A stretch of DNA of 25,913 nucleotides from a virus: the IMG/VR virus record IMGVR_UViG_3300013126_000211, positions 1-25,913 of that record. One strand, 5' to 3'. Both the position numbers and the translations under genes were made by a program. Under the pieces are notes generated by a model. The model was not told the origin of the DNA, did not search any database, and worked only from the letters and a program-made list of their open reading frames with translations. Positions 13,407-25,913 of the stretch are shown here, one piece after another; within the stretch, counting starts at the first letter, position 1; every line of letters begins with the position of its first letter.

Positions 13407-13615
13407 TACCTTTCTTGGACAGAACGGATATAGTCAGAGATCCTTATTCCAAAGCGATACTTTCCAAGGATAAGGCAGGATTTCTTGCTGCCAAGAAAAA
13501 GAAGGAAGAAGAATCTAGATATATAAAATTAGAAAAACAGGTTAATCAACTTAAGAATGACACCATACAAATAAAACAAATGTTGCAAGAGTTGTTGAAC
13601 AGAGGAAATAAATGA
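13403..13615 (+). CDS. Small coiled-coil protein (possible fibre adaptor or chaperone)
   Basis: A 70-aa protein. The N-terminus reads DRTDIVRDPYSKAILSKDKA, then comes a lysine-rich stretch (AAKKKKEEE, residues 29-37) and a C-terminal heptad-like helix (KLEKQVNQLKNDTIQIKQML) predicted to form a coiled coil. Both ends overlap neighbours by 4 nt (ATGA), so it is wedged between the 1919-aa and 1479-aa structural genes and is probably translationally coupled to both. Small coiled-coil proteins near fibre genes can be structural linkers or trimerisation helpers (T4 gp57A, 79 aa, is such a chaperone), but no sequence match to gp57A is claimed. That the ORF is real is well supported by packing; its function is inference. 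Confidence 0.65.
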   Translation: MIPFLDRTDIVRDPYSKAILSKDKAGFLAAKKKKEEESRYIKLEKQVNQLKNDTIQIKQMLQELLNRGNK

Positions 13616-16600
13616 GCACAAATACAGACGATATCATCTCTGGTGGGTTGTTTGCTCCTATAGAGCCACTTAAACTTAATGATACTTTTTATACATGGTA
13701 CAACACTACCAATATCATAATTGATGCGCTAAATCCTCTCGCCATCTACGATGTAGCGGCTGGACCTGGTATAACTGTCACCAAAATATCTGGTGGTGTG
13801 GGTGTTGTTAGTGTAAATGCTGGTTGTGGTTTAAAATTCGATACCAATATCTCTTTGACTCTGGATATATCGGGAACTCAGGAATCCTCGACTGTTCAAG
13901 AAGAAGATTACTATATTTTTGAACAATATGGTGGGACTAACATCACTACTGATAGTGGTGATTGTGAGACACTTTTTAAAGTTCAAGCAACTAACATACT
14001 TCCATATTTTGTTTCAGGTGATCACGATTTCTTAGGTGGCGATACTTCTCTATTCAAGGTATCTTCTACTAATTTTGAAATAGATTCTAATAATGTAGAA
14101 TTCAAGACAACCAACATCTATCTAAACAACAATCCAACGACAACAGATGATGGGTACGAAGATAGACAAAACATTGCTTTTGTAGGTTTTACCGTTCACG
14201 CTGGAGATGAAGAACCAACCTTTGGTTATGATGGTTCTATTCTTGCTTGGAAGAGTAATCAAAACTTTGCAGTGACATCCGACAGATCTTATGTTTCGGA
14301 CTCGGCAGGTTCTGATGCTTCTTTCCGTTTCAGTACAAAAACCGCATCACAGCAGAATGTTTCGCTTAAATTATTGACTGGCTCCAGAGAGTCTGACATA
14401 GATGCTGGTAAGATCTTTAGAATGGAAGCAATCGACAGTATTAATAAGATTTCTTTTCATTTTGATGATGAGAATACAACATTCGGTGAAGTTTCCATGT
14501 TCTCTGCTTCCTACAACCAGGCTCTTGATAGAACAGAGTTTCAAATTCAAGGAACTGCGTATATTAGAGACATAGAGGATTCGTCACAGTTTTTGACTGT
14601 ATCCGATAGTACAGCATATAAAGTTCCAATCACCAATACAAATGGAGTGTTGGACTATAAGTTTACAAACAGATTCGTATCCAGCAATTATTCGCCTACT
14701 TTGGTTGTAGGTGATGTTGTTCGTTTTGAGTATTCAGATAATACAAACACCACAGAAGATATTGATGTAGTGGCAGCGCAAGCAGACACAGAATCAAATT
14801 CCAGAACAGTCGGTGTAGTAGAATCTATTTCTGGTGGAAAGATTACCGTAGCACTTAATGGTGTCTGCAACAGAACGAGTGTCACATCTGGACAGGTTTA
14901 TTACCTATCACAAACTCTAGCAGGAAAAGTAACAAGCACAAAACCAACAAGCGGAATAGTAAAAGAAGTATTTGTTGGAGTAGATACATCCAAAGTATTG
15001 ATATTTGGAACATCAACTCTTCAAACACCTAACTTTGGTAGTGTGTTGGTAGACGGTGGAGACACAGTAGAATCCACGACATATGGTGATACTCTATCTC
15101 TTGTTGCTGGATCTAACATAAGTCTTTCGACAAATACAAGCAATGAAATTATAATAACTGCTGGTGCTTTAATTGATGCAGATTACTGGACAACCATATC
15201 CACAGACACTGGTGCTCCAAACGAAATTGCAGCAAGTGGACCAGGACAGCAAGCGTTTATTCTTGGTGGAAATGGTGCTTCAACGGAAGCAACAGGACCA
15301 GATACAATAGTGGTAAATGCTCCCAATTCATATGGAATCATAGAAATAGTCGGCGAAAATACAGATGAATTGGATTATACTCTAACCGCATCTTCTGGTT
15401 CCGATACTCTTACAATTCGTTCTGGCGTTGGTATAAACATAACTTCTTCCACAAACAACGATATTGTGATCGAGGCAACGGGACTTTCGGTTCCAGCAAA
15501 TAGATCAATCACCAATCAAAAATTGGCTCTAATGGAATCGTATAGCGTCAAGGGAGCGCAACTAAACGGCGAACCTATCGACATATATCAACAAGAAGAA
15601 GTTCATGAAATAACATATCCAGTTCTTGCGTCATATTATGATGTATATTATGGAACAGATGGAGAAAGAGTATACAGAGATCCTGTAACCTTAATAGAAT
15701 ATCCATCTCTTACAAGTGAAGTTTTGGAAAGCAGCACTCCAGTAGGAACTCCTAATGCAGTCTCTGGATTTGTAATTGGTAGAGTTGTTGATGAAGAAGG
15801 AAATGTATCCGATCTAAAGACACTAAACAGAAAAGAACTTCGTCTAATATTAGGTGCATCTTCCACTGGTTTCTTGGAAGAAAACAACAAACTGTTTAAT
15901 GCTTGGCAATTATATGACTATAGCGACATACTAACTTCTATAGATTCTGAGACTGCTGAAGGTAAGTCTGGAACTTTGAGATTCGTTGCTGGACCTGGTA
16001 TAGAACTAGAAGGTATAGAAGGAGTCGCTGGTAGCACATCTAAGTCCATAAAGATAACAGCAACTGGCGATGCCGCGGCGTTCTCAACCATCACGAATGT
16101 TACAACCGCAGAGAGTCTTCTGGCCGCTGGTGTTGGTTCTACACTAAACATCTCGGAAAGAGATGCTGTTGGTATTGATGTAACCAGTAACAACGAACTG
16201 GATTTCTATATCAAATCTGGTGGTATTACAAACGATATGTTGACAGGAATGCCAGAAAACAGTGTAAAGGTAAACACAGGCGGAACAAACGACACGACAC
16301 CTGTTGATCTCTATATTGATGAAAATCAAATTCTAGGTAGACTTGAAGATGGTTTTGTTAAAGCACTTTCTGGATCTGAAGTTCGTCAAATAATAGGACT
16401 CACATCTTCAGACTACTACAAGGCAATCAGTTGCTACACAGGAGCCACTCTATCTGGTACAGCAAATGCCGCAAGCACAGAAACATTGATTCTGCGTGGT
16501 GGAACTAATATAAGTCTTACTGTTCTTGGAGACAGTAGCATCAGAATTGATGCCACTACAGATTCTTCTATGTACGGAATCAAGACGATTTCGTTCTCAG

Positions 16601-18051
16601 AAACTGGACAAACATATACACCAACCCATTTAATCATGGATGAGGTTTATCTCTCGTCTTCAAGTGGTGTCTATAACAATATTGATGTAATTACTTCTTA
16701 TTCCTCAAGTACCGATACTTTGACTACAAGTTTTGATCTTGGTGTTATGCCACAAAGATCAGTTAAAGTCGCTGGGTCTGCTTACAACAACGGTAGAGGT
16801 GGTTACTTAGCCAGCAATCTGATTCTGCAACAAGGTCATGTTCTTGGTGTAACTACAACTGGAACTGCTGTATCGAGCATACCATTCTCCACTGTAGTTC
16901 AGAATTCTGGTCTTAGTTACTACTATTCCGCTAGTGTAGATGGTTACAACATCTATTCTTCGGGAGCAAGTCAACTGAAGTTTGTTTCTGGTGGAAATGT
17001 ACAACTGTCCTATGATGGAACCAACATCGTAATAACTTCAAACACAGATGTGCAGAGCGATACTACTCCTACTTTGGGTGGAAATCTGGAACTAGATTCC
17101 AAGTTCTTCACACAGGGAGCCAAGAAATCTTTAGGACTTACCAATTCTCTGACATATACCACAAATCATTATCTTAATGTTAAAAATGCTGTAAATAAGA
17201 TAGAACTTGAAGTCATAAGAGACACATCAGTTGCCACTGGTATAGACATAGTTATGACTCCATATGGTACAGGTTCTGTGGTGTCTCCAAGATTCTCTTC
17301 TGATGCCATAAACAATTTGACTCTGAAGACAGGAACCAGTGATGGTAAAATAGTGGTGGATGGTAATGCTTCTACATCTACAACAATATCTGCTACTGGA
17401 AGTAAAGCACTTTACCTTGCTCCTGGCACAAGTTCAAACGACATAGCGTTACACTTCGATAATGGTGTTTCCGCTAGAACTATTATTGCAAGAAGATCGA
17501 CTAACGATCTTGGTGTTCTCCACACGAGTCCACTTGGAAACTTGGTGCTGGCAGCAGGACACATCTCAACTGGAATTTCAACTGGAGCGAATTATATTCA
17601 AATGAATTCCAGCGTTCTGATGAACTCTAGCAAGACAATAGGTTCTCAAGATAATGTGATTAAGATTAACGCCACTGATAGTGGTTATCTAAAACTATCT
17701 GGAACCAACAAATCAGTTTCTCAGAAAGTTTCGTCCACCAGCATGATTACTGCGACTAGCAGAATCATCGACACATTCAAGATTTCCAGTATAGGGACCA
17801 GCATGAAGTATGTGGTGAGAGGAGAAAATCCTTCTACAGCCACAGATAAATTCCTATTGGAGTTTAATTTGATTATTTCTGGAACTGAAGTTGTAAGTGA
17901 AGTTATTTCCAGAATATATCCTGCTGCTGCGACAGGAACCACAAAAGGTGTAGTTCCATCCGTAGTTTCGGACGGAACCGATGTGGAAGTGTCCCTAAAT
18001 ACGATAGACGGAAACTATACCGTAACTGTTTACAGAACAGCACTACTATAA
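13612..18051 (+). CDS. Repeat-rich tail fibre protein (1479 aa)
   Basis: The N-terminal segment LNDTFYTWYNTTNIIIDALN (about residues 23-42) is the short helical anchor common at the start of fibre and gp10-like proteins in T4-like marine phages. The body is built from beta-rich repeats of the type 'GpGI...S..I.I.A' (GPGITVTKISGG, GSNISLSTNTSNEIIITAG, GVGINITSSTNNDIVIEA, GPGIELEGIEG, SGGNVQLSYDGTNIVITS). A larger repeat, 'SVK...LG...', recurs about three times near residues 630-750, 870-930 and 1045-1100. The motif TPTLGGNLELDSKFF is typical of phage fibre shafts. The C-terminal ~60 residues (GTTKGVVPSVVSDGTDVEV and on) resemble terminal domains of other marine phage fibres. It occupies the slot of T4 genes 10-12/wac, upstream of gene 13. 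An AGAGGAAA ribosome binding site precedes the start, inside the previous gene. The receptor is unknown. Confidence 0.8.
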   Translation: MSTNTDDIISGGLFAPIEPLKLNDTFYTWYNTTNIIIDALNPLAIYDVAAGPGITVTKISGGVGVVSVNAGCGLKFDTNISLTLDISGTQESSTVQEEDYYIFEQYGGTNITTDSGDCETLFKVQATNILPYFVSGDHDFLGGDTSLFKVSSTNFEIDSNNVEFKTTNIYLNNNPTTTDDGYEDRQNIAFVGFTVHAGDEEPTFGYDGSILAWKSNQNFAVTSDRSYVSDSAGSDASFRFSTKTASQQNVSLKLLTGSRESDIDAGKIFRMEAIDSINKISFHFDDENTTFGEVSMFSASYNQALDRTEFQIQGTAYIRDIEDSSQFLTVSDSTAYKVPITNTNGVLDYKFTNRFVSSNYSPTLVVGDVVRFEYSDNTNTTEDIDVVAAQADTESNSRTVGVVESISGGKITVALNGVCNRTSVTSGQVYYLSQTLAGKVTSTKPTSGIVKEVFVGVDTSKVLIFGTSTLQTPNFGSVLVDGGDTVESTTYGDTLSLVAGSNISLSTNTSNEIIITAGALIDADYWTTISTDTGAPNEIAASGPGQQAFILGGNGASTEATGPDTIVVNAPNSYGIIEIVGENTDELDYTLTASSGSDTLTIRSGVGINITSSTNNDIVIEATGLSVPANRSITNQKLALMESYSVKGAQLNGEPIDIYQQEEVHEITYPVLASYYDVYYGTDGERVYRDPVTLIEYPSLTSEVLESSTPVGTPNAVSGFVIGRVVDEEGNVSDLKTLNRKELRLILGASSTGFLEENNKLFNAWQLYDYSDILTSIDSETAEGKSGTLRFVAGPGIELEGIEGVAGSTSKSIKITATGDAAAFSTITNVTTAESLLAAGVGSTLNISERDAVGIDVTSNNELDFYIKSGGITNDMLTGMPENSVKVNTGGTNDTTPVDLYIDENQILGRLEDGFVKALSGSEVRQIIGLTSSDYYKAISCYTGATLSGTANAASTETLILRGGTNISLTVLGDSSIRIDATTDSSMYGIKTISFSETGQTYTPTHLIMDEVYLSSSSGVYNNIDVITSYSSSTDTLTTSFDLGVMPQRSVKVAGSAYNNGRGGYLASNLILQQGHVLGVTTTGTAVSSIPFSTVVQNSGLSYYYSASVDGYNIYSSGASQLKFVSGGNVQLSYDGTNIVITSNTDVQSDTTPTLGGNLELDSKFFTQGAKKSLGLTNSLTYTTNHYLNVKNAVNKIELEVIRDTSVATGIDIVMTPYGTGSVVSPRFSSDAINNLTLKTGTSDGKIVVDGNASTSTTISATGSKALYLAPGTSSNDIALHFDNGVSARTIIARRSTNDLGVLHTSPLGNLVLAAGHISTGISTGANYIQMNSSVLMNSSKTIGSQDNVIKINATDSGYLKLSGTNKSVSQKVSSTSMITATSRIIDTFKISSIGTSMKYVVRGENPSTATDKFLLEFNLIISGTEVVSEVISRIYPAAATGTTKGVVPSVVSDGTDVEVSLNTIDGNYTVTVYRTALL

Positions 18052-18425: not shown

Positions 18426-18459
18426 TCTCCTCAATTATAAATAATAGAAATTGAGGAGA
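18426..18459 (+). promoter_or_regulatory. Hairpin that can sequester the gp13 ribosome binding site
   Basis: A perfect 11-bp inverted repeat: left arm TCTCCTCAATT at 18426-18436, right arm AATTGAGGAGA at 18449-18459, loop of 12 nt. The right arm contains the Shine-Dalgarno GAGGAG (18453-18458), 5 nt before the gp13 ATG at 18464. In RNA reading through from upstream, the hairpin would hide this site. No T-tract follows, so it does not look like an intrinsic terminator. The repeat is seen directly; the RNA effect is inferred. Confidence 0.7.
18436..18443 (+). promoter_or_regulatory. T4-type late promoter (TATAAATA) driving gp13 onward
   Basis: An exact match to the T4 late promoter -10 consensus TATAAATA (cyanophage late motif NATAAATA), in one of the few intergenic spaces of the window. 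With T4 geometry (-13 to -6), transcription would start at about 18449, the first base of the right arm of the surrounding inverted repeat. The transcript would then lack the left arm and leave the gp13 ribosome binding site open. It is the only exact TATAAATA I found on the + strand outside coding sequence. Confidence 0.75.
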
Positions 18460-19282: not shown

Positions 19283-19975
19283 ATGGCAACAAATCCTTAT
19301 TTCAACAATACCAAGTATAAACCATCTCAGGATCTAATGGAAGATCTAATGATCGAATCTATAAAGACCAAGGGATTGGATGTATACTATCTACCGAGAA
19401 GATATGCAAATAAAGACATAGTTTTTGGAGAAGATCCTATGTCTTATTTTGATATTTCCTTTCCTATTGAAATGTATCTGGACACATTCAACGGATTTCA
19501 AGGTGAAAGAGAAATAGTATCTAAGTTTGGTATAGAGATACAGGACAATATGACTCTTACAGTTGCCAAGAAAAGATTTGAACAAGAAGCAGCAAAACTT
19601 CCAGCAATGAGTGATCGTCCGATTGATATAGATGCTCCTGCGATGGGAGATCTCATATACTTTCCACTATCCAAAGGTTTGTTTGAAATCAAGTATGTGG
19701 ACAATAAACAAGTGTTCTTTCAAGGTGGAAAATTGTACACATATAAACTCGAATGCGAACTCTTCAAGTATTCTATGGAAGAACTGAATACAGGAAACAG
19801 CGACATAGATGTAATCGAAGACAACATAGTTGGTACTGGTGATTCGGATGGTGATGGAACACCAGACTTCATAAAGGATATCAAGGGTGTCGATGATTCC
19901 ACTGATCTGCAACTAGAGGGATTGGATATCATAGATTTCACAGAAGTAGATCCTTTTTCCGAGGGTAACTACTGA
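19283..19975 (+). CDS. 14: Neck protein gp14
   Basis: A 230-aa member of the T4 gp14 family (T4 256 aa), which with gp13 completes the neck after DNA packaging. The start NPYFNNTKYKPSQDLMEDLM, the following ESIKTKGLDVYYLPRRY, and the later GDLIYFPLSKGLFEI and LYTYKLECELFKYS segments are characteristic. The C-terminus is acidic and contains DSDGDGTPD at residues 187-195, a loop with the spacing of calcium-binding DxDGDGxxD motifs. I do not know this to be a usual gp14 feature. It follows gp13 by 3 nt, and its TGA shares a base with the gp15 ATG. Confidence 0.92.
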   Translation: MATNPYFNNTKYKPSQDLMEDLMIESIKTKGLDVYYLPRRYANKDIVFGEDPMSYFDISFPIEMYLDTFNGFQGEREIVSKFGIEIQDNMTLTVAKKRFEQEAAKLPAMSDRPIDIDAPAMGDLIYFPLSKGLFEIKYVDNKQVFFQGGKLYTYKLECELFKYSMEELNTGNSDIDVIEDNIVGTGDSDGDGTPDFIKDIKGVDDSTDLQLEGLDIIDFTEVDPFSEGNY

Positions 19976-20649
19976 TGTTTACAAATTTCTATCATGGACT
20001 TATAAGAAAAACTGTAATTTCCTTTGGAACACTGTTCAACAATCTGTACATAAACAGAACCGATGGACAGGGAAGAAATCAAAAGATAAAGGTTCCTTTG
20101 GTCTATTCTCCCAAGGAAAAGTTTATGCAAAAACTTTCACAAAGTTTTGCAGATCTAGAAAATCAAGCCACACAGATAACTCTACCCAGAATGTCTTTCT
20201 CGATATCAAACATGCAGTATGATCCAGAGAGAAAAAAGAACAGCATTCAGAAAAGATATAAGGAAACTGTGACTACCAGCGGTGACATGGAGTTTTCATA
20301 CCATCACTGCAATGTTCCTTACAATCTAGAATTTACCTTGTCTTCTTATGTCCGAAACATGGACGATGGACTACAGATCGTCGAGCAGATACTTCCTTAC
20401 TTCACTCCAGAATTCACGGTCACGATAAAGCCAGGTGTTCTTGGTGATTCTTATGAAAAACTCGATATACCTATAGTGCTTACTTCGGTCACTACCGAGG
20501 AAAAGGCAGAGGGATCTTTATTGACCGAATCTACTAGATTCATAACATGGGATATGGTTTTTGCTGCAAAAATGATGATCTATGGACCGGTCAAGACATC
20601 ACCCCTTATTCAGAACATCGACGCAAACATATTCAGGTTGGAGGATTAA
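19975..20649 (+). CDS. 15: Tail sheath stabiliser/tail completion protein gp15
   Basis: A 224-aa homologue of T4 gp15 (272 aa), which forms the ring that caps the tail tube and sheath and provides the docking site for the neck. The N-terminal FYHGLIRKTVISFGTLFNNL, then KVPLVYSPKEKFMQKL, and the middle QIVEQILPYFTPEFTVTIKP are close in pattern to T4 gp15 (VPITYASKEHFMMKL, QIVEQILPYFQPHF). It is about 50 residues shorter than T4 gp15, lacking the proline-rich T4 tail. It overlaps gp14 by one base and the next small gene by one base (TAATG). Confidence 0.9.
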   Translation: MFTNFYHGLIRKTVISFGTLFNNLYINRTDGQGRNQKIKVPLVYSPKEKFMQKLSQSFADLENQATQITLPRMSFSISNMQYDPERKKNSIQKRYKETVTTSGDMEFSYHHCNVPYNLEFTLSSYVRNMDDGLQIVEQILPYFTPEFTVTIKPGVLGDSYEKLDIPIVLTSVTTEEKAEGSLLTESTRFITWDMVFAAKMMIYGPVKTSPLIQNIDANIFRLED

Positions 20650-20909
20650 TGGCGCACAAATGGTCACATATCAACATAGCACCAGTAGTCTACGACAAGG
20701 ACACCAATAGCGATTATATCTTGAACACCAACGGAGACAGGACAGTTCTGAACGATCAATACAACGAAATAGCATCGACCGATGAGTATACAGCAAAGGT
20801 TGAGATAGAAGAATATCCATATTGGGAATTCACTAGTCAGGATCCAGGTCCACAATATACGCTACCTTCAAAGAAGTCTGTGTTCGAGTTGTATATAAAT
20901 CTACAATAA
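20649..20909 (+). CDS. Hypothetical 86-aa protein
   Basis: The start is at 20649, overlapping the gp15 stop as TAATG, with a good GGAGG-like ribosome binding site a few bases upstream (20640-20644). The same frame is open upstream to 20547, but that stretch lies within gp15. The protein begins MAHKWSHINIAPVVYDKDT, is acidic and aromatic-rich (EEYPYWEF, then QDPGPQYTLPSKKS), and has no membrane segment or signal peptide. The G+C of its DNA (25/60 at 20701-20760) matches the structural genes rather than the AT-rich genes that follow. I do not recognise it. It may be a small virion or tail-completion accessory protein given its coupling to gp15. Confidence 0.6.
   Translation: MAHKWSHINIAPVVYDKDTNSDYILNTNGDRTVLNDQYNEIASTDEYTAKVEIEEYPYWEFTSQDPGPQYTLPSKKSVFELYINLQ
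20894..20901 (+). promoter_or_regulatory. Weak candidate late promoter (TATAAATC)
   Basis: A one-mismatch version of TATAAATA, 20 nt upstream of the 639-aa gene at 20922, which also has an AAAGGA ribosome binding site. The motif overlaps the last codons of the 86-aa gene, so it could be coding coincidence. The placement would give the inserted gene pair its own late promoter. Confidence 0.3.
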
Positions 20910-20921
20910 AAGGATTAAAAG

Positions 20922-22841
20922 ATGAGATATAGAAGAGTAGGTAGTTTGTTTAAAAGAAACATCAATGTTTCCGAAGAAATAGGTCAAAATAAAAGAATAG
21001 TCATACCAAATCCAGTTACTTATACCGAAGCGGAAATAGCAGAGGAAAAGAAAAAATTAGATAGATTCTCCATATCTTCTGGTTCTGCCGTAATCCCAGT
21101 TGAGCCAGAAATAATATTAAATAAGATGAGTTATTTTTCAGATGATGGTTCTAAAATAGCATATTATACAAAAGGATCATCTGGTAAAAATATAACAATA
21201 TACTCTTTCAATTCTTCTACTTTAGTAAAAACATTTATTACACAGATATCAGTAAATTCTATACCATTCGAGTGTAGAACCACCGAAAAGTGTTTTGTGT
21301 CTAATGATGGTAAATATGTTTTATTGTCTGTTCCTTCAGTTAGTTCTTTATATTTTTACAGCACAGAAACTGGTTTTTTGATACAAACAATAACAGATGA
21401 TCAGACTAATTTTGGATCTATTATAGCGGTAGATTGTGATTTTAAAAGTATGGTAGTATCTACTTCTGATTTAAAAAGAGATCCTTTAATTACCGATACC
21501 AGATCTGTAGGTAATTCTGTATCGAGCATAATATGTGTATATAAAAGAAACTATAATAGTTCTGCTACACAAAAATTTATCAAAATACATAGTAGAACCG
21601 CATATGCTCCAATAATAGACAATTCTAGTAATGTATTACCATATCCATTTCCTTATGCTCTTGGATATGCTTTAGAAGTAATAGAACCTAATGTTTATTA
21701 TTTCCAAGGAGTTCATAGAACATCTGATATATGTTGCAAAGGAAATGTTTTTTCTTTAAGTTGTCTAGGGTTGAAAAACGATCAGTTAAATTATAAATGT
21801 AGATTTTGGAATTACGACTCTCCTAGATATTATTCACTAAGATCTTCTTTAACATCTTCTCAAGATAATTATTATTTAAAATTTAGTAAAGACTATGTGC
21901 CTGGAAGTGGTTTTTTAAGTAATATAAAAAATGATAGTTTTTATAATAACCAAACATATAAAAGCGTCAATAATATATCTTGCAAAATATTTAAAGTAAT
22001 AAATTCTATAGAGAACAAAGATAAAATAGACGGATCTGCATATTCTTCTTCTCCTATACCTCCAAATATGTTCATATCAGATATAGAAAATACTTCTAAT
22101 GTTTTTGATGATAATCTAAACAAAAAACACGAAATATACGCTTTGTATAATTACAGTTTATTTGATAATTTGTATAAATCTTTTGATAATTATGAAACAA
22201 TTTTTGATATTAGATCTGAGGAAATTGTTCACAGTAAAAATATATTAAATGATAATTATTGTTATTATATTACCGTTGTGATGACGAATGATATTAAAAA
22301 TATTAGAATACATCGTTATCCTATACACAGTTCAGATAATTTAAATATTTTTAATTATATTGATTATGTTTATAATGGTTTGGACTATGATATTTCTCCT
22401 AATGATCCATCAATCGGTTTGGTTAAAATTATTTTTAAATCTTCTGATAGAAATAATTTAGAAAATTGTTTTCTTTCTAACGATGATGTTAATAATATAT
22501 CTGGATATTCATTAAATATAGTAGGATATAATAAACCATTTTTAAGCAATCCGAGTTTGTGTTCGAATTGTGAATTTGATTTTGAATCAAATATCATGGA
22601 TGAAACTTTGCACAATTGTTTTGTGTCTAATCATTATATGTTTTTAAATTTTAATACAAAAACTATTATATTTAAAATAGAAAACGATGTATGTAAATCT
22701 TTAAAGTTTGTGACAGAAATAGACACTCTGAAAGAGTATACTTTTAATTATAATGAAAATGGTGAATTTTTTGGTAAATTGAATAAAATATATAAATTCA
22801 ATAGACAAACTAACGAAATAATAGAGAAAGTTAATTTATAA
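20922..22841 (+). CDS. Unrecognised 639-aa protein with beta-propeller-like repeats, AT-rich insertion gene 1
   Basis: No family is recognised. Residues 1-65 form a charged, helix-prone N-terminus (MRYRRVGSLFKRN, then EAEIAEEKKKLDR). After that come repeated beta-strand units with a turn: FSDDGSKIAYY at 72-82, FVSNDGKYVLLSV at 125-137, then VDCDFKSMVVSTS near 170-183. The ~45-55 residue spacing suits blades of a beta-propeller. The protein is rich in Asn, Ser, Tyr and Ile, with no signal peptide or membrane helix. Its DNA is markedly poorer in G+C than the neighbours (10/60 at 22321-22380; 15/60 at 21781-21840), suggesting separate acquisition. It shares one base with the start of the hydrolase gene (TAATG), so the two are likely co-expressed. 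A binding or structural partner of the hydrolase is a reasonable guess. Confidence 0.6.
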   Translation: MRYRRVGSLFKRNINVSEEIGQNKRIVIPNPVTYTEAEIAEEKKKLDRFSISSGSAVIPVEPEIILNKMSYFSDDGSKIAYYTKGSSGKNITIYSFNSSTLVKTFITQISVNSIPFECRTTEKCFVSNDGKYVLLSVPSVSSLYFYSTETGFLIQTITDDQTNFGSIIAVDCDFKSMVVSTSDLKRDPLITDTRSVGNSVSSIICVYKRNYNSSATQKFIKIHSRTAYAPIIDNSSNVLPYPFPYALGYALEVIEPNVYYFQGVHRTSDICCKGNVFSLSCLGLKNDQLNYKCRFWNYDSPRYYSLRSSLTSSQDNYYLKFSKDYVPGSGFLSNIKNDSFYNNQTYKSVNNISCKIFKVINSIENKDKIDGSAYSSSPIPPNMFISDIENTSNVFDDNLNKKHEIYALYNYSLFDNLYKSFDNYETIFDIRSEEIVHSKNILNDNYCYYITVVMTNDIKNIRIHRYPIHSSDNLNIFNYIDYVYNGLDYDISPNDPSIGLVKIIFKSSDRNNLENCFLSNDDVNNISGYSLNIVGYNKPFLSNPSLCSNCEFDFESNIMDETLHNCFVSNHYMFLNFNTKTIIFKIENDVCKSLKFVTEIDTLKEYTFNYNENGEFFGKLNKIYKFNRQTNEIIEKVNL

Positions 22842-24925
22842 TGCCTATTTTTAATACTCCATCTACTGGAATATACTCTACAGATCAACAAAGTGTAGGA
22901 ATATCTCCATTTATTTTTTCCGATAGTTTGAGCACTAGGGATGATATTTTTTTCTGCTCAGATCTTTCTTTTTTAAATTTTATCAGAATAAGGGCTGGTT
23001 TGTCTATTATAAATGATGTTTCATTAAATGAATATTCTTTATTGGTTTTTGTATGCGATGATGTAATTGATACAAATTTTGTCAATATATATTCTATTAA
23101 AACATTAAATTTAAATATAGTATCTAATTACTTAAATGCTAAAATAAATTCTAGTATGCCTAATCACGAAACTATGTGTGACACGATTTCTTATGATGAA
23201 GTTTTATCTTTGTGTAAAGAATATAAAATAATATTCAGAATAACTAATAATATTTCAAAAGATAAAGATATATTGAGTTTAAAAAATGGAGACATTTTAA
23301 ATAATTTTAAATTAATTTTAGACGGTTTGGACAGAGGACCTTATAGTGTAAAATTAGAACATATTGATATTTTAAGTCCTTTAGAATTTAATGATACTGA
23401 GCGTTTGAATGTATATACAAATACTCTGAGTATTTTTGGTTATGAAGGTATCAGAACTTTTTATCCAGAAGAAATATTGAATAGCAATAATCTTATGCCC
23501 ATGATCTGCATACAGCATGGTGTAGCACATGAACACCAAGGATATGACATATATGCATCTAAACTAGCATCTTATGGATATTTTGTTTGTATGTTACAAC
23601 AAGAAACATATGCTGGAAATTCTACAAAATTTGGAAATTATCATATTTTAGGAAAACTTAGACATTTAAAAAATAATATTAGTAAAATAAATTCAGGAAA
23701 GTTTAATAATAAAATTAATTTTAATAAAATAACATTAATTGGTCATAGTCAGGGTGGAGACAAAGTGTATAGTGCTTGCACAGAAGTTGGTATAGATCCT
23801 GACTCTGGAATAGATATAAACGATATAATGTGTCTTGTTTTGATAAATCCAGCAATTGCGTTTGAATTTTCTTTGGCTGGATTCAGAACATCAGCAGCAA
23901 CTCCAGAATCAACTTTTAGATTTGCCGCAGATGTTCCTTTACTTTGCCTTGCATCTGATCGTGACGATGCAGTTAAAAATATAACTTATGATTTTTTTGC
24001 TAACTATGGAATGGATGATAATTTTCGAAATAAAAATTACAAAAGAATAATTTCTTTTAGAAATACTCTACATGGAGGACCTATATTAGATTTTTCTTAT
24101 TTAAATTACATAGATGCCACTTTCGATCAAAATTTTGACAATAGAACTTATTATACTAAAAATTCCAAAGCAAATTCTATAAATTATGCAGCATCTTATG
24201 TTTTATATTTTTTAAGTATGTGCTTAAAACAAAAAATAAACTCATCGTCTATCATTACAAGCAATTTTAATATTGTTGAGAATGAAAATAAAATTAAACA
24301 ATGCATTTATACAATAGATCACGAAAAATCTTCAAATATACACACAATAATAGATGAATATAACAATTTAAGCCCAGATTTGACACACAGTGGATTGGAT
24401 TTTTTATTCCAGGCAACCGATGCACGAGATGTGTATCAGTCTTTTGATAATTTTGATGGTATTTTTACTAGAAGATCAAATGAAAACAGTGGAGGTATCC
24501 GTTTATCCTATACTGGTGATAGTTTTATTAGATATGATTCTGAATATGATTTTACAAACTGTAGATACTTAGAAATATATTCAGCACAAGTGCTGGATTA
24601 TAGCGGCACATATAATGATTTTTCTACAGATAAGAATTTTTGTTTACAGATTGTAGACGGCAGGGGTAATGAAGTATTGATGAGTAGCAAATTATACAAC
24701 AATGGTATACCAGTTCATATGAACGACACTCAGAATCACACAATTACTAAAAATCCTTTTAGTGTTACATGTCCTATTCCAATACGATTTAATATGCAAC
24801 ACATACAGCAAATAAATCCAGAGTTAGATCTGTCGGATATAAGAAGTATAATATTAAAATTTGGTCCTTCTTTTGGATCATCTACTGGTAGGATAGCAAT
24901 TTACAGAATACAAACAATCAATTGA
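22841..24925 (+). CDS. Alpha/beta serine hydrolase (esterase/cutinase/PAF-acetylhydrolase-like) with C-terminal beta-sandwich
   Basis: A 694-aa protein with a clear alpha/beta hydrolase core at about residues 200-420. The oxyanion-loop motif is QHGVAHEHQGYD (225-236), and LASYGYFVCML follows. The nucleophile elbow is GHSQGG with Ser303. The acid is probably one of Asp373/375/376 (ASDRDD), and the base is His411 (NTLHGGP). Order and spacing fit cutinase/PAF-acetylhydrolase/dienelactone-hydrolase relatives that cut esters. Residues ~490-694 resemble the galactose-binding-like beta-sandwich seen at the end of some bacterial hydrolases (FCLQIVDGRGNEVLMSSK, PELDLSDIRSIILKFG). Residues 1-195 are unrecognised. 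No signal peptide is visible, so delivery may be as a virion part or by lysis. The DNA is strongly AT-rich, like the upstream gene. Substrate is unknown: O-acetylated or ester-linked surface polymers, lipids and polyesters are all possible. Confidence 0.78.
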   Translation: MPIFNTPSTGIYSTDQQSVGISPFIFSDSLSTRDDIFFCSDLSFLNFIRIRAGLSIINDVSLNEYSLLVFVCDDVIDTNFVNIYSIKTLNLNIVSNYLNAKINSSMPNHETMCDTISYDEVLSLCKEYKIIFRITNNISKDKDILSLKNGDILNNFKLILDGLDRGPYSVKLEHIDILSPLEFNDTERLNVYTNTLSIFGYEGIRTFYPEEILNSNNLMPMICIQHGVAHEHQGYDIYASKLASYGYFVCMLQQETYAGNSTKFGNYHILGKLRHLKNNISKINSGKFNNKINFNKITLIGHSQGGDKVYSACTEVGIDPDSGIDINDIMCLVLINPAIAFEFSLAGFRTSAATPESTFRFAADVPLLCLASDRDDAVKNITYDFFANYGMDDNFRNKNYKRIISFRNTLHGGPILDFSYLNYIDATFDQNFDNRTYYTKNSKANSINYAASYVLYFLSMCLKQKINSSSIITSNFNIVENENKIKQCIYTIDHEKSSNIHTIIDEYNNLSPDLTHSGLDFLFQATDARDVYQSFDNFDGIFTRRSNENSGGIRLSYTGDSFIRYDSEYDFTNCRYLEIYSAQVLDYSGTYNDFSTDKNFCLQIVDGRGNEVLMSSKLYNNGIPVHMNDTQNHTITKNPFSVTCPIPIRFNMQHIQQINPELDLSDIRSIILKFGPSFGSSTGRIAIYRIQTIN

Positions 24926-24934
24926 GAAATATTT

Positions 24935-25384
24935 ATGAGCGATAATATATACGATAAAATGGAAAAAATATTTGATTTAGAAGTACCTACAATACCAACA
25001 TCGGTTGGTGATATTCTTCCAGTAAAGGAAGTGACTGTAGACAAGGAAGATGTGGACAAAGATTATACCACCGTCAGAGAAAATCTGAAGGATATAGTCA
25101 AGAGAGGAACCGAAGCGATAGACGGCATCATGTTGGTGGCTTCTGAATCACAGTCACCAAGAGCATACGAAGTCGTTGCTACCTTGATCAAGAGTGTTGC
25201 GGATGCAAATAAAGATCTGCTGTCTCTCCACAAGCAAATCAAGGAAATAAAGAGAACTGAAGTAGACAATTCCTCCACTACCATAACAAACAACTCTTTG
25301 TTTGTTGGCAGCACATCCGAACTACAGAAACTAATAAAAGGTAAGATGAAGGAAATAGACGAAACGAAGATCGTAGATGAGTAA
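24935..25384 (+). CDS. 16: Terminase small subunit gp16
   Basis: A 149-aa member of the T4 gp16 family (T4 164 aa), the small terminase subunit that recognises DNA and stimulates the gp17 motor and nuclease. The central helices (ENLKDIVKRGTEAIDGIMLV, then SQSPRAYEVVATLIKSVAD) and the C-terminal ITNNSLFVGSTSELQKLI segment are typical of the family. The start has no obvious strong ribosome binding site, and only 9 nt separate it from the hydrolase stop. The first ~20 codons are still AT-rich, and G+C rises after about 25000 (28/60 at 25081-25140). The right edge of the foreign-looking segment may therefore fall inside the 5' end of this gene. It overlaps gp17 by 8 nt. Confidence 0.88.
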   Translation: MSDNIYDKMEKIFDLEVPTIPTSVGDILPVKEVTVDKEDVDKDYTTVRENLKDIVKRGTEAIDGIMLVASESQSPRAYEVVATLIKSVADANKDLLSLHKQIKEIKRTEVDNSSTTITNNSLFVGSTSELQKLIKGKMKEIDETKIVDE

Positions 25385-25913
25385 CAGTTATCTCGGAAAC
25401 GAAAATCTAAAAGCCGCTGGTGTTAAAGTTTCTTGGACACCAGAGCAGATCGAAGAGTATGTAAAATGCTCTCAGGATCCTGTCTACTTCATTAGAAAAT
25501 ACATCAAGATCATCAACCTAGACAAAGGTCTGGTGAACTTTGATATGTACAAATTCCAAGAAGATATGGTGACGAAGATACACAACAACCGCTTCACCAT
25601 AGCCAAGTTACCTCGTCAATCTGGAAAATCGACCACAGTTGTTTCTTATATTCTTCATTACATTCTGTTCAATCCAGAAGTAAATGTGGCAATATTGGCA
25701 CACAAGCAGGAAATTGCTCGTGAACTATTAGGTAAACTGAAAGTAGCATATGAATATCTGCCAAAATGGCTACAGCAGGGTATTCTGGAATGGAATAAAG
25801 GTTCTATTGTCCTTGAAAACAAATCAAAGGTAAAAGCATCAGCAACCTCATCTAGTGCCATCCGTGGTGGTTCTTTCAACCTGATCTTTTTGGACGAGTT
25901 TGCGTATGTCCCT
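25377..25913 (+). CDS. 17: Terminase large subunit gp17, N-terminal part (cut by window end)
   Basis: The first 179 codons of the packaging motor ATPase/nuclease (T4 gp17 610 aa). The start ATG at 25377 overlaps the end of gp16 by 8 nt and gives MSNSYLGNENLKAAGVKVSW. Walker A is RQSGKS at residues 80-85 (T4 has RQLGKT). A helix with HYILFNPEVNVAILAHKQE follows. Walker B with the catalytic Glu is LIFLDEFAYVP at 169-179, parallel to T4 IYIDECAFIP. Walker A lies at ~80 rather than ~160 in T4, so the N-terminal extension is shorter. The nuclease domain lies beyond the window. The identification is firm. Confidence 0.95.
   Translation, partial: MSNSYLGNENLKAAGVKVSWTPEQIEEYVKCSQDPVYFIRKYIKIINLDKGLVNFDMYKFQEDMVTKIHNNRFTIAKLPRQSGKSTTVVSYILHYILFNPEVNVAILAHKQEIARELLGKLKVAYEYLPKWLQQGILEWNKGSIVLENKSKVKASATSSSAIRGGSFNLIFLDEFAYVP

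Follow-up and report, generated by a model that had tools for sequence, protein, structure and literature searches.

What is a hydrolase of the cutinase and PAF acetylhydrolase (PAF-AH) type doing between the neck and terminase genes of a T4-like phage? The question is raised by the 25,913-base IMG/VR virus record IMGVR_UViG_3300013126_000211 (the window, meaning the whole stretch analysed at that length), in which a 694-residue protein is encoded at 22841-24925, directly 3' of a second gene, the open reading frame (ORF) ORF639 (20922-22841). The two lie between gp15, the tail sheath stabilizer that forms the left boundary of the insertion site (19975-20649; phrog_227, 2e-64), and gp16, the small terminase on its right (24935-25384; phrog_445, 6.9e-41); the genes and domains placed here from gp15 to gp17 are on the + strand. 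A preliminary description made from the sequence alone had proposed either a virion-attached esterase acting on the host surface or a lysis-released enzyme. Our analysis leans modestly towards the former, as sequence and analogy suggest that the two genes encode a two-protein virion appendage with a host-surface esterase, for which ORF639 would be the anchor.

The predicted presence of an alpha/beta hydrolase in the 694-residue protein is firm, as profile matches and structural alignment of a model agree in its placement. The protein is laid out as an N domain (residues 1-195), the alpha/beta hydrolase (approximately 196-470; 23426-24250), a linker (approximately 471-550) and a beta-rich C domain (approximately 551-694). 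As a single sequence it gave only sub-threshold Pfam matches to PETase, chlorophyllase and PAF-AH, scoring 17.8 bits against the PETase family PF12740 (gathering score 28) and 14.3 against PAF-AH_p_II PF03403 (gathering score 20), the latter cut-off being passed by a single family member, the L087 homologue, with 24 bits. In the PDB search the match to GlacPETase went from 2.3e-4 with the single sequence to 1.8e-7 with a profile of all seven family members, which also matched other PETases at about 2e-4 and PAF-AH at about 1e-3. AlphaFold on the single sequence reached a predicted local distance difference test (pLDDT) score of 30, and an alignment-based model (m4a86a5958b92; mean pLDDT 60, predicted template modelling score 0.57) was used instead, which is confident over approximately residues 21-195 and most of 201-310. 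Foldseek matched this model to PETase, cutinase and chlorophyllase structures (IsPETase, 1.9e-8), and VIA-align gave Z scores of 15.7-17.1 over 206-226 aligned residues, the highest being 17.1 for chlorophyllase 8fjd and 16.6 for GlacPETase 8x6v, within model residues of approximately 115-471. The fold search thus recovered the alpha/beta hydrolase fold that the preliminary description had expected, and its cutinase/PAF-AH-like class is backed by profiles and fold alike. Membership of the SGNH hydrolases was rejected, the nucleophile lying in the GHSQGG motif of an alpha/beta hydrolase core and not in a GDS(L)-type block I close to the start of the domain.

With the PETase and bacterial cutinase family (PF12740; GlacPETase 8x6v, IsPETase, Cut190) the phage enzyme shares the fold and the GHSxGG elbow and, in the clade of the window, a probable Ser-Asp-His order with the acid after strand beta7. 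In contrast, identity is only 13-18%, scores fall below Pfam gathering, and the phage enzyme is part of a multidomain protein, with additional domains at its N and C ends.

The gene itself is real, as indicated by six IMG/VR homologues (29-46% identity; seven members including the window) and by a dN/dS of about 0.2 between the L016 and L011 hydrolases. Sister phages were gathered via their terminase and yielded the first two homologues, L016 and L011 (approximately 45% identity), and the search was then iterated with alignments to recover L086, L087, L091 and L095; the family count rests on peptide-pattern scans, which can miss members. Searches by tblastn with the hydrolases of the window, L087 and L095, the L087 partner and both N-terminal segments gave no match among 50,697 phage records. 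PHROGs, NCBIfam and PADLOC gave no assignment; the one NCBIfam match, to a terephthalate-ester hydrolase, lay far below threshold. Two scans of genome contigs with family-specific peptide patterns found no cellular relatives. The cyanophage 'carboxylesterase' T4-GC438 was ruled out as the same gene, being far too short at 135-429 bp (PMC3037559).

Comparison of the seven members allowed the proposed active site to be examined residue by residue. The putative nucleophile Ser303 (23747-23749, within the elbow at 23741-23758) and the putative base His411 (24071-24073), which follows the last core strand, are invariant in all seven, down to 29% identity. The elbow conforms to G(H/Q)SxG throughout, GQSFGG replacing GHSxGG in L095. 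Of the three acids offered earlier for a Ser-Asp-His triad, Asp376 was ruled out, being Glu in L016 and L011, while Asp373 and Asp375 are shared only by the window, L016 and L011. Asp375 (23963-23965), placed after strand beta7, is most likely the catalytic acid, since the residues that follow it resemble the PETase acid loop; Asp373 is the second choice. The HG-type oxyanion loop in the same description survived in part, with Gly227 invariant and His226 replaced by Arg in L011. After strand beta6, L086, L087, L091 and L095 all have Glu (LEG, LEG, LEH and LED, respectively; E343 in L091), where the window has Asn336, and L086 and L087 also possess an Asp after beta7. PAF-AH carries its catalytic acid at this post-beta6 place. 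The resemblance to PAF-AH isoform II (PF03403) comprises the L087 score and an acidic residue after beta6 in these four members, and differs in that this residue is Glu and not Asp, that the window has Asn there, and that the window falls below the cut-off. A reasonable reading of these sequences is that the catalytic acid may have shifted between beta7 (Asp, window clade) and beta6 (Glu, other clade), and the family would then provide a compact natural test of a catalytic acid moving between two strands.

The same variation would also fit a protein that retains the alpha/beta hydrolase scaffold for recognition only, as the acid position is not conserved over the family, the oxyanion-loop His is lost in L011 and the elbow is altered in L095. 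We consider such a non-catalytic binding protein improbable, given the invariance of Ser303 and His411 and the possible replacement acid, Glu after beta6, found wherever the beta7 Asp is absent.

A hint of where this enzyme may act comes from its constant partner. A homologue of ORF639 lies directly upstream of the hydrolase in 7/7 members, and an eighth partner homologue, L093, runs off the end of its contig. In the window, translation of the two is probably coupled, as the hydrolase ATG overlaps the ORF639 stop codon (TAATG). ORF639 comprises a short N-terminal segment (approximately residues 1-48) followed by a body that looks beta-propeller-like from its sequence. The N-terminus is of one type in the window and L006, and of a different type of about 115 residues in L086, L087, L091, L093 and L095, whose pair sits in a different gene neighbourhood from that of the window; the L091 contig encodes a T4-type DNA polymerase. 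A WW-like motif, PFGIFYYNxxxxxWMNSFG, was observed at residues 80-110 of this longer segment (L087:5717 onward, and homologues), the Pfam WW family matching one member at E 0.97.

The strongest pointer to the host surface is the manner in which the pair varies between phages. Close relatives were defined by a terminase at least 92% identical, and 12, window included, had a readable gp15-gp16 interval; it holds the pair in three, a protein of 1157 residues in one (L006) and neither in eight, albeit with L008 and L014 looking like near-copies, so that the independent count is slightly below 12. The 1157-residue protein (L006:6077-9550; homologue L010:2-2926) matches ORF639 at 58% over its first 48 or so residues and is unrelated in its body; no family, PDB or phage match was found for this protein. 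It was considered as an SGNH esterase and dropped, as the would-be DxxH is absent from L010. The pair forms an AT-rich island, with a GC content of 25.6% in ORF639 and 27.9% in the hydrolase (third-position GC, GC3, of 0.155 and 0.170, respectively) in comparison to 37-40% (GC3 0.33-0.41) in gp13-gp15 and gp16-gp17 and 41-44% just upstream of the pair; in L016 and L091, too, the pair is richer in AT than the genes around it. The near-identical phages L087 and L091 share flanking proteins at 97% identity and hydrolases at only 34%, and their DNA is 92.7% identical upstream until approximately codon 245 of the partner, with 88% identity resuming just past the hydrolase stop codon. The partner body and the hydrolase have been replaced together as an allele, with sharp borders, between flanks of approximately 90-97% identity. 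Tail-fibre and receptor-binding genes evolve in this way, a distal part being replaced along with its enzyme while the flanks stay conserved. By analogy, the ORF639-hydrolase pair behaves like an adsorption module, and it is mostly because of this swapping pattern that a host-surface function is argued here.

The main rival explanation is a soluble hydrolase, intracellular or released at lysis, of the metabolic-cargo type, that would break down host esters (lipids, storage polyester or ester-linked polymers) at a late stage of infection and stay out of the virion. Position among structural genes, on which the earlier proposal had drawn, is not evidence alone for a virion role, as the gp15-gp17 stretch of related phages holds metabolic cargo too, namely 2-oxoglutarate oxygenases, ferrochelatase, zwf, gnd and PTOX, and a gp16-gp17 hot-spot has been reported for such phages (PMC3037559). 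The relatives of the enzyme among cutinases, PETases and PAF-AH act on lipids and polyesters, and no signal peptide was noted in the preliminary description. Lysin B of the mycobacteriophage type is another alpha/beta hydrolase of phages, one that attacks esters of the envelope, and that of Rhodococcus phage Finch appeared in the viral fold list, as a poor match with a root mean square deviation of 22; it differs in being a lysis enzyme, while the 694-residue protein is encoded in the neck/terminase cluster. We nevertheless regard a soluble enzyme as unlikely. Metabolic cargo does not typically show a constant partner with a lineage-dependent N-terminus, an N domain confined to the family or allelic replacement inside flanks of approximately 90-97% identity, and the two genome-contig scans, made with family-specific peptide patterns, returned no cellular relative. 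The virion-attached esterase, conversely, gains indirect support from the constant pairing, the exchangeable partner N-termini and the allelic swapping.

The partner N-terminus admits a further interpretation, in which the ORF639 segment would target the pair to the capsid as a propeptide, the pair would be packaged inside the head and the enzyme would work in the cell once ejected. In the ORF639 homologues of the window (residues 1-19, 20922-20980), L016 (L016:5511), L011 and L006 (L006:6077), an N-terminal stretch of 18-19 residues closes with [IV]-x-E (VSE, INE, ISE; residues 16-19), within the propeptide length of 10-19 residues reported for T4 internal proteins (PMC9026906); in the other clade [LI]-x-E lies further in, near residue 45-52. 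Furthermore, neighbours of the L091 pair in L107 and L108 start with MKxFxxFLxE or similar (L107:19677, L108:3362), suggestive of packaged internal proteins. We attach little probability to this scenario, as the motif consists of three residues picked out by eye, with no estimate of its chance frequency, the site of the second clade falls far outside 10-19 residues, the segment occurs on no other protein of the same phages, and the hydrolase itself has no such N-terminus.

For the appendage that we favour, the two domains flanking the enzyme suggest a division of labour. The N domain (22841-23425), described earlier as an unrecognised stretch of approximately 195 residues, proved to be beta-rich (pLDDT mostly 70-90). 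Its 35-44% identity across the family is comparable to that of the catalytic core in distant members; it has no PDB sequence match and, among the loci compared, occurs only in members of the hydrolase family. Identity falls to 13-38% across the acid/His region, linker and C domain. The C domain (24491-24925; 23-36% identity) is a candidate substrate-binding part; it is beta-rich in the model, and the galactose-binding-like label given to it earlier gained no support, as sequence searches gave no convincing family match, whether to a carbohydrate-binding module or to a galactose-binding-like domain. A NosD match to the C domain, at E 0.0013 below cut-off and in one of six members, was taken as chance. 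Fold searches were dominated by the hydrolase part, and their matches say nothing on the N or C folds. A conserved, family-only N domain and a variable C domain suggest a docking or structural role for the former and a specificity role for the latter. In the proposed mechanism the lineage-specific N-terminus of ORF639 would dock onto the virion, its propeller-like body would hold or present the hydrolase via the hydrolase N domain, and the variable C domain would bind substrate. The enzyme would then cleave ester-linked groups on the host envelope during adsorption, either acyl or O-acetyl groups or polyester or lipid esters, through a putative Ser303-His411-Asp375 relay.

Several observations weigh against this mechanism, in addition to the metabolic genes in the gp15-gp17 stretch of relatives. 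Library searches found no recognised virion-anchor family in ORF639, whose repeats were judged by eye and whose sole match, to PD40, is below cut-off (E 0.63), and the hydrolase itself bears no trimer, collagen or beta-helix signature. The failure to find the N-terminal segment on other proteins of the same phages counts here as well. At the active site, model residues 372-446, which span the Asp/His region, have pLDDT values below 50, and no Asp follows beta7 in L091 or L095.

Comparison with known particle-borne enzymes places the pair in context. To our knowledge, most receptor-related enzymes of phage particles either depolymerise glycans or are SGNH deacetylases. Gp63.1 of coliphage G7C and fibres of Klebsiella prophages (PMC13123978), as well as gp41 of Acinetobacter phage Aristophanes (PMC8471582), are virion esterases with the SGNH fold. 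They resemble the present system in a proposed role at adsorption, that of stripping ester-linked groups off the host surface, and differ from it in fold and in architecture, as an alpha/beta hydrolase is found here with its presumed anchor on a separate protein, in a two-gene arrangement. Virion-associated lipases of Cellulophaga phages, predicted as is the enzyme here, share the idea of a virion lipase or esterase and are likened by description, not by sequence (Pires et al. 2016, as cited in PMC5380687). The catalytic fold and virion surface esterases are thus known, and what is new is the combination of an alpha/beta hydrolase fold, a two-gene cassette and the swapping pattern. More tentatively, and with rather more doubt than confidence, the pair may be a mobile adsorption module that crosses distant T4-related lineages by a changed N-terminal adaptor on the partner and diversifies by allelic swapping, employing an alpha/beta hydrolase instead of an SGNH enzyme and an acid that has moved between beta7 Asp and beta6 Glu. 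With an enzyme resembling cutinases and PAF-AH, a swappable cassette would bring a different chemistry to adsorption, possibly directed at lipid or polyester esters, and it could be used to track switches of host range among T4-like phages that have not been cultured.

The gene order of the window is baseplate genes, long fibre-like ORFs, orf119, gp13, gp14, gp15, an 86-residue ORF, ORF639, the 694-residue protein, gp16 and gp17. The 86-residue ORF has homologues in many relatives; it was listed as 120 residues at 20547-20909, and homology together with TAATG coupling to gp15 places its start at 20649 (20649-20909). The large terminase gp17 is partial and runs off the window (25377-25913; phrog_5989, 6.5e-62), its best matches lying in marine Kyanoviridae at 66-68% identity. 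psbA was not found in related phage fragments, which are not whole genomes, and this absence argues neither for nor against a cyanobacterial host. The T4 late-promoter consensus TATAAATA is present at 18436-18443, 20 bases 5' of the gp13 start, with the total count of TATAAATA matches in the window at chance level, as is the frequency of sigma-70 promoter-like sites.

Ahead of gp13 lies a Ser/Thr-rich ORF of 1479 residues (13612-18051; 12% each) without a Pfam or PHROGs match, which, by analogy with the host-recognition region of pelagimyophages (PMC7029224), probably encodes a fibre. RCC1-type repeats (Pfam RCC1_2) occur in very long proteins encoded near or in pair-bearing genomes (L093:2514-7538, L109:11516-17023), and the C-terminal part of the L093 protein recalls heparinase/alginate-lyase proteins by eye. 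Genes just after the portal gene in L115 (14289-15878) and L117 (15872-17785) encode proteins with Cys-rich starts, that of L115 also containing a collagen-like stretch matching tail-fibre families.

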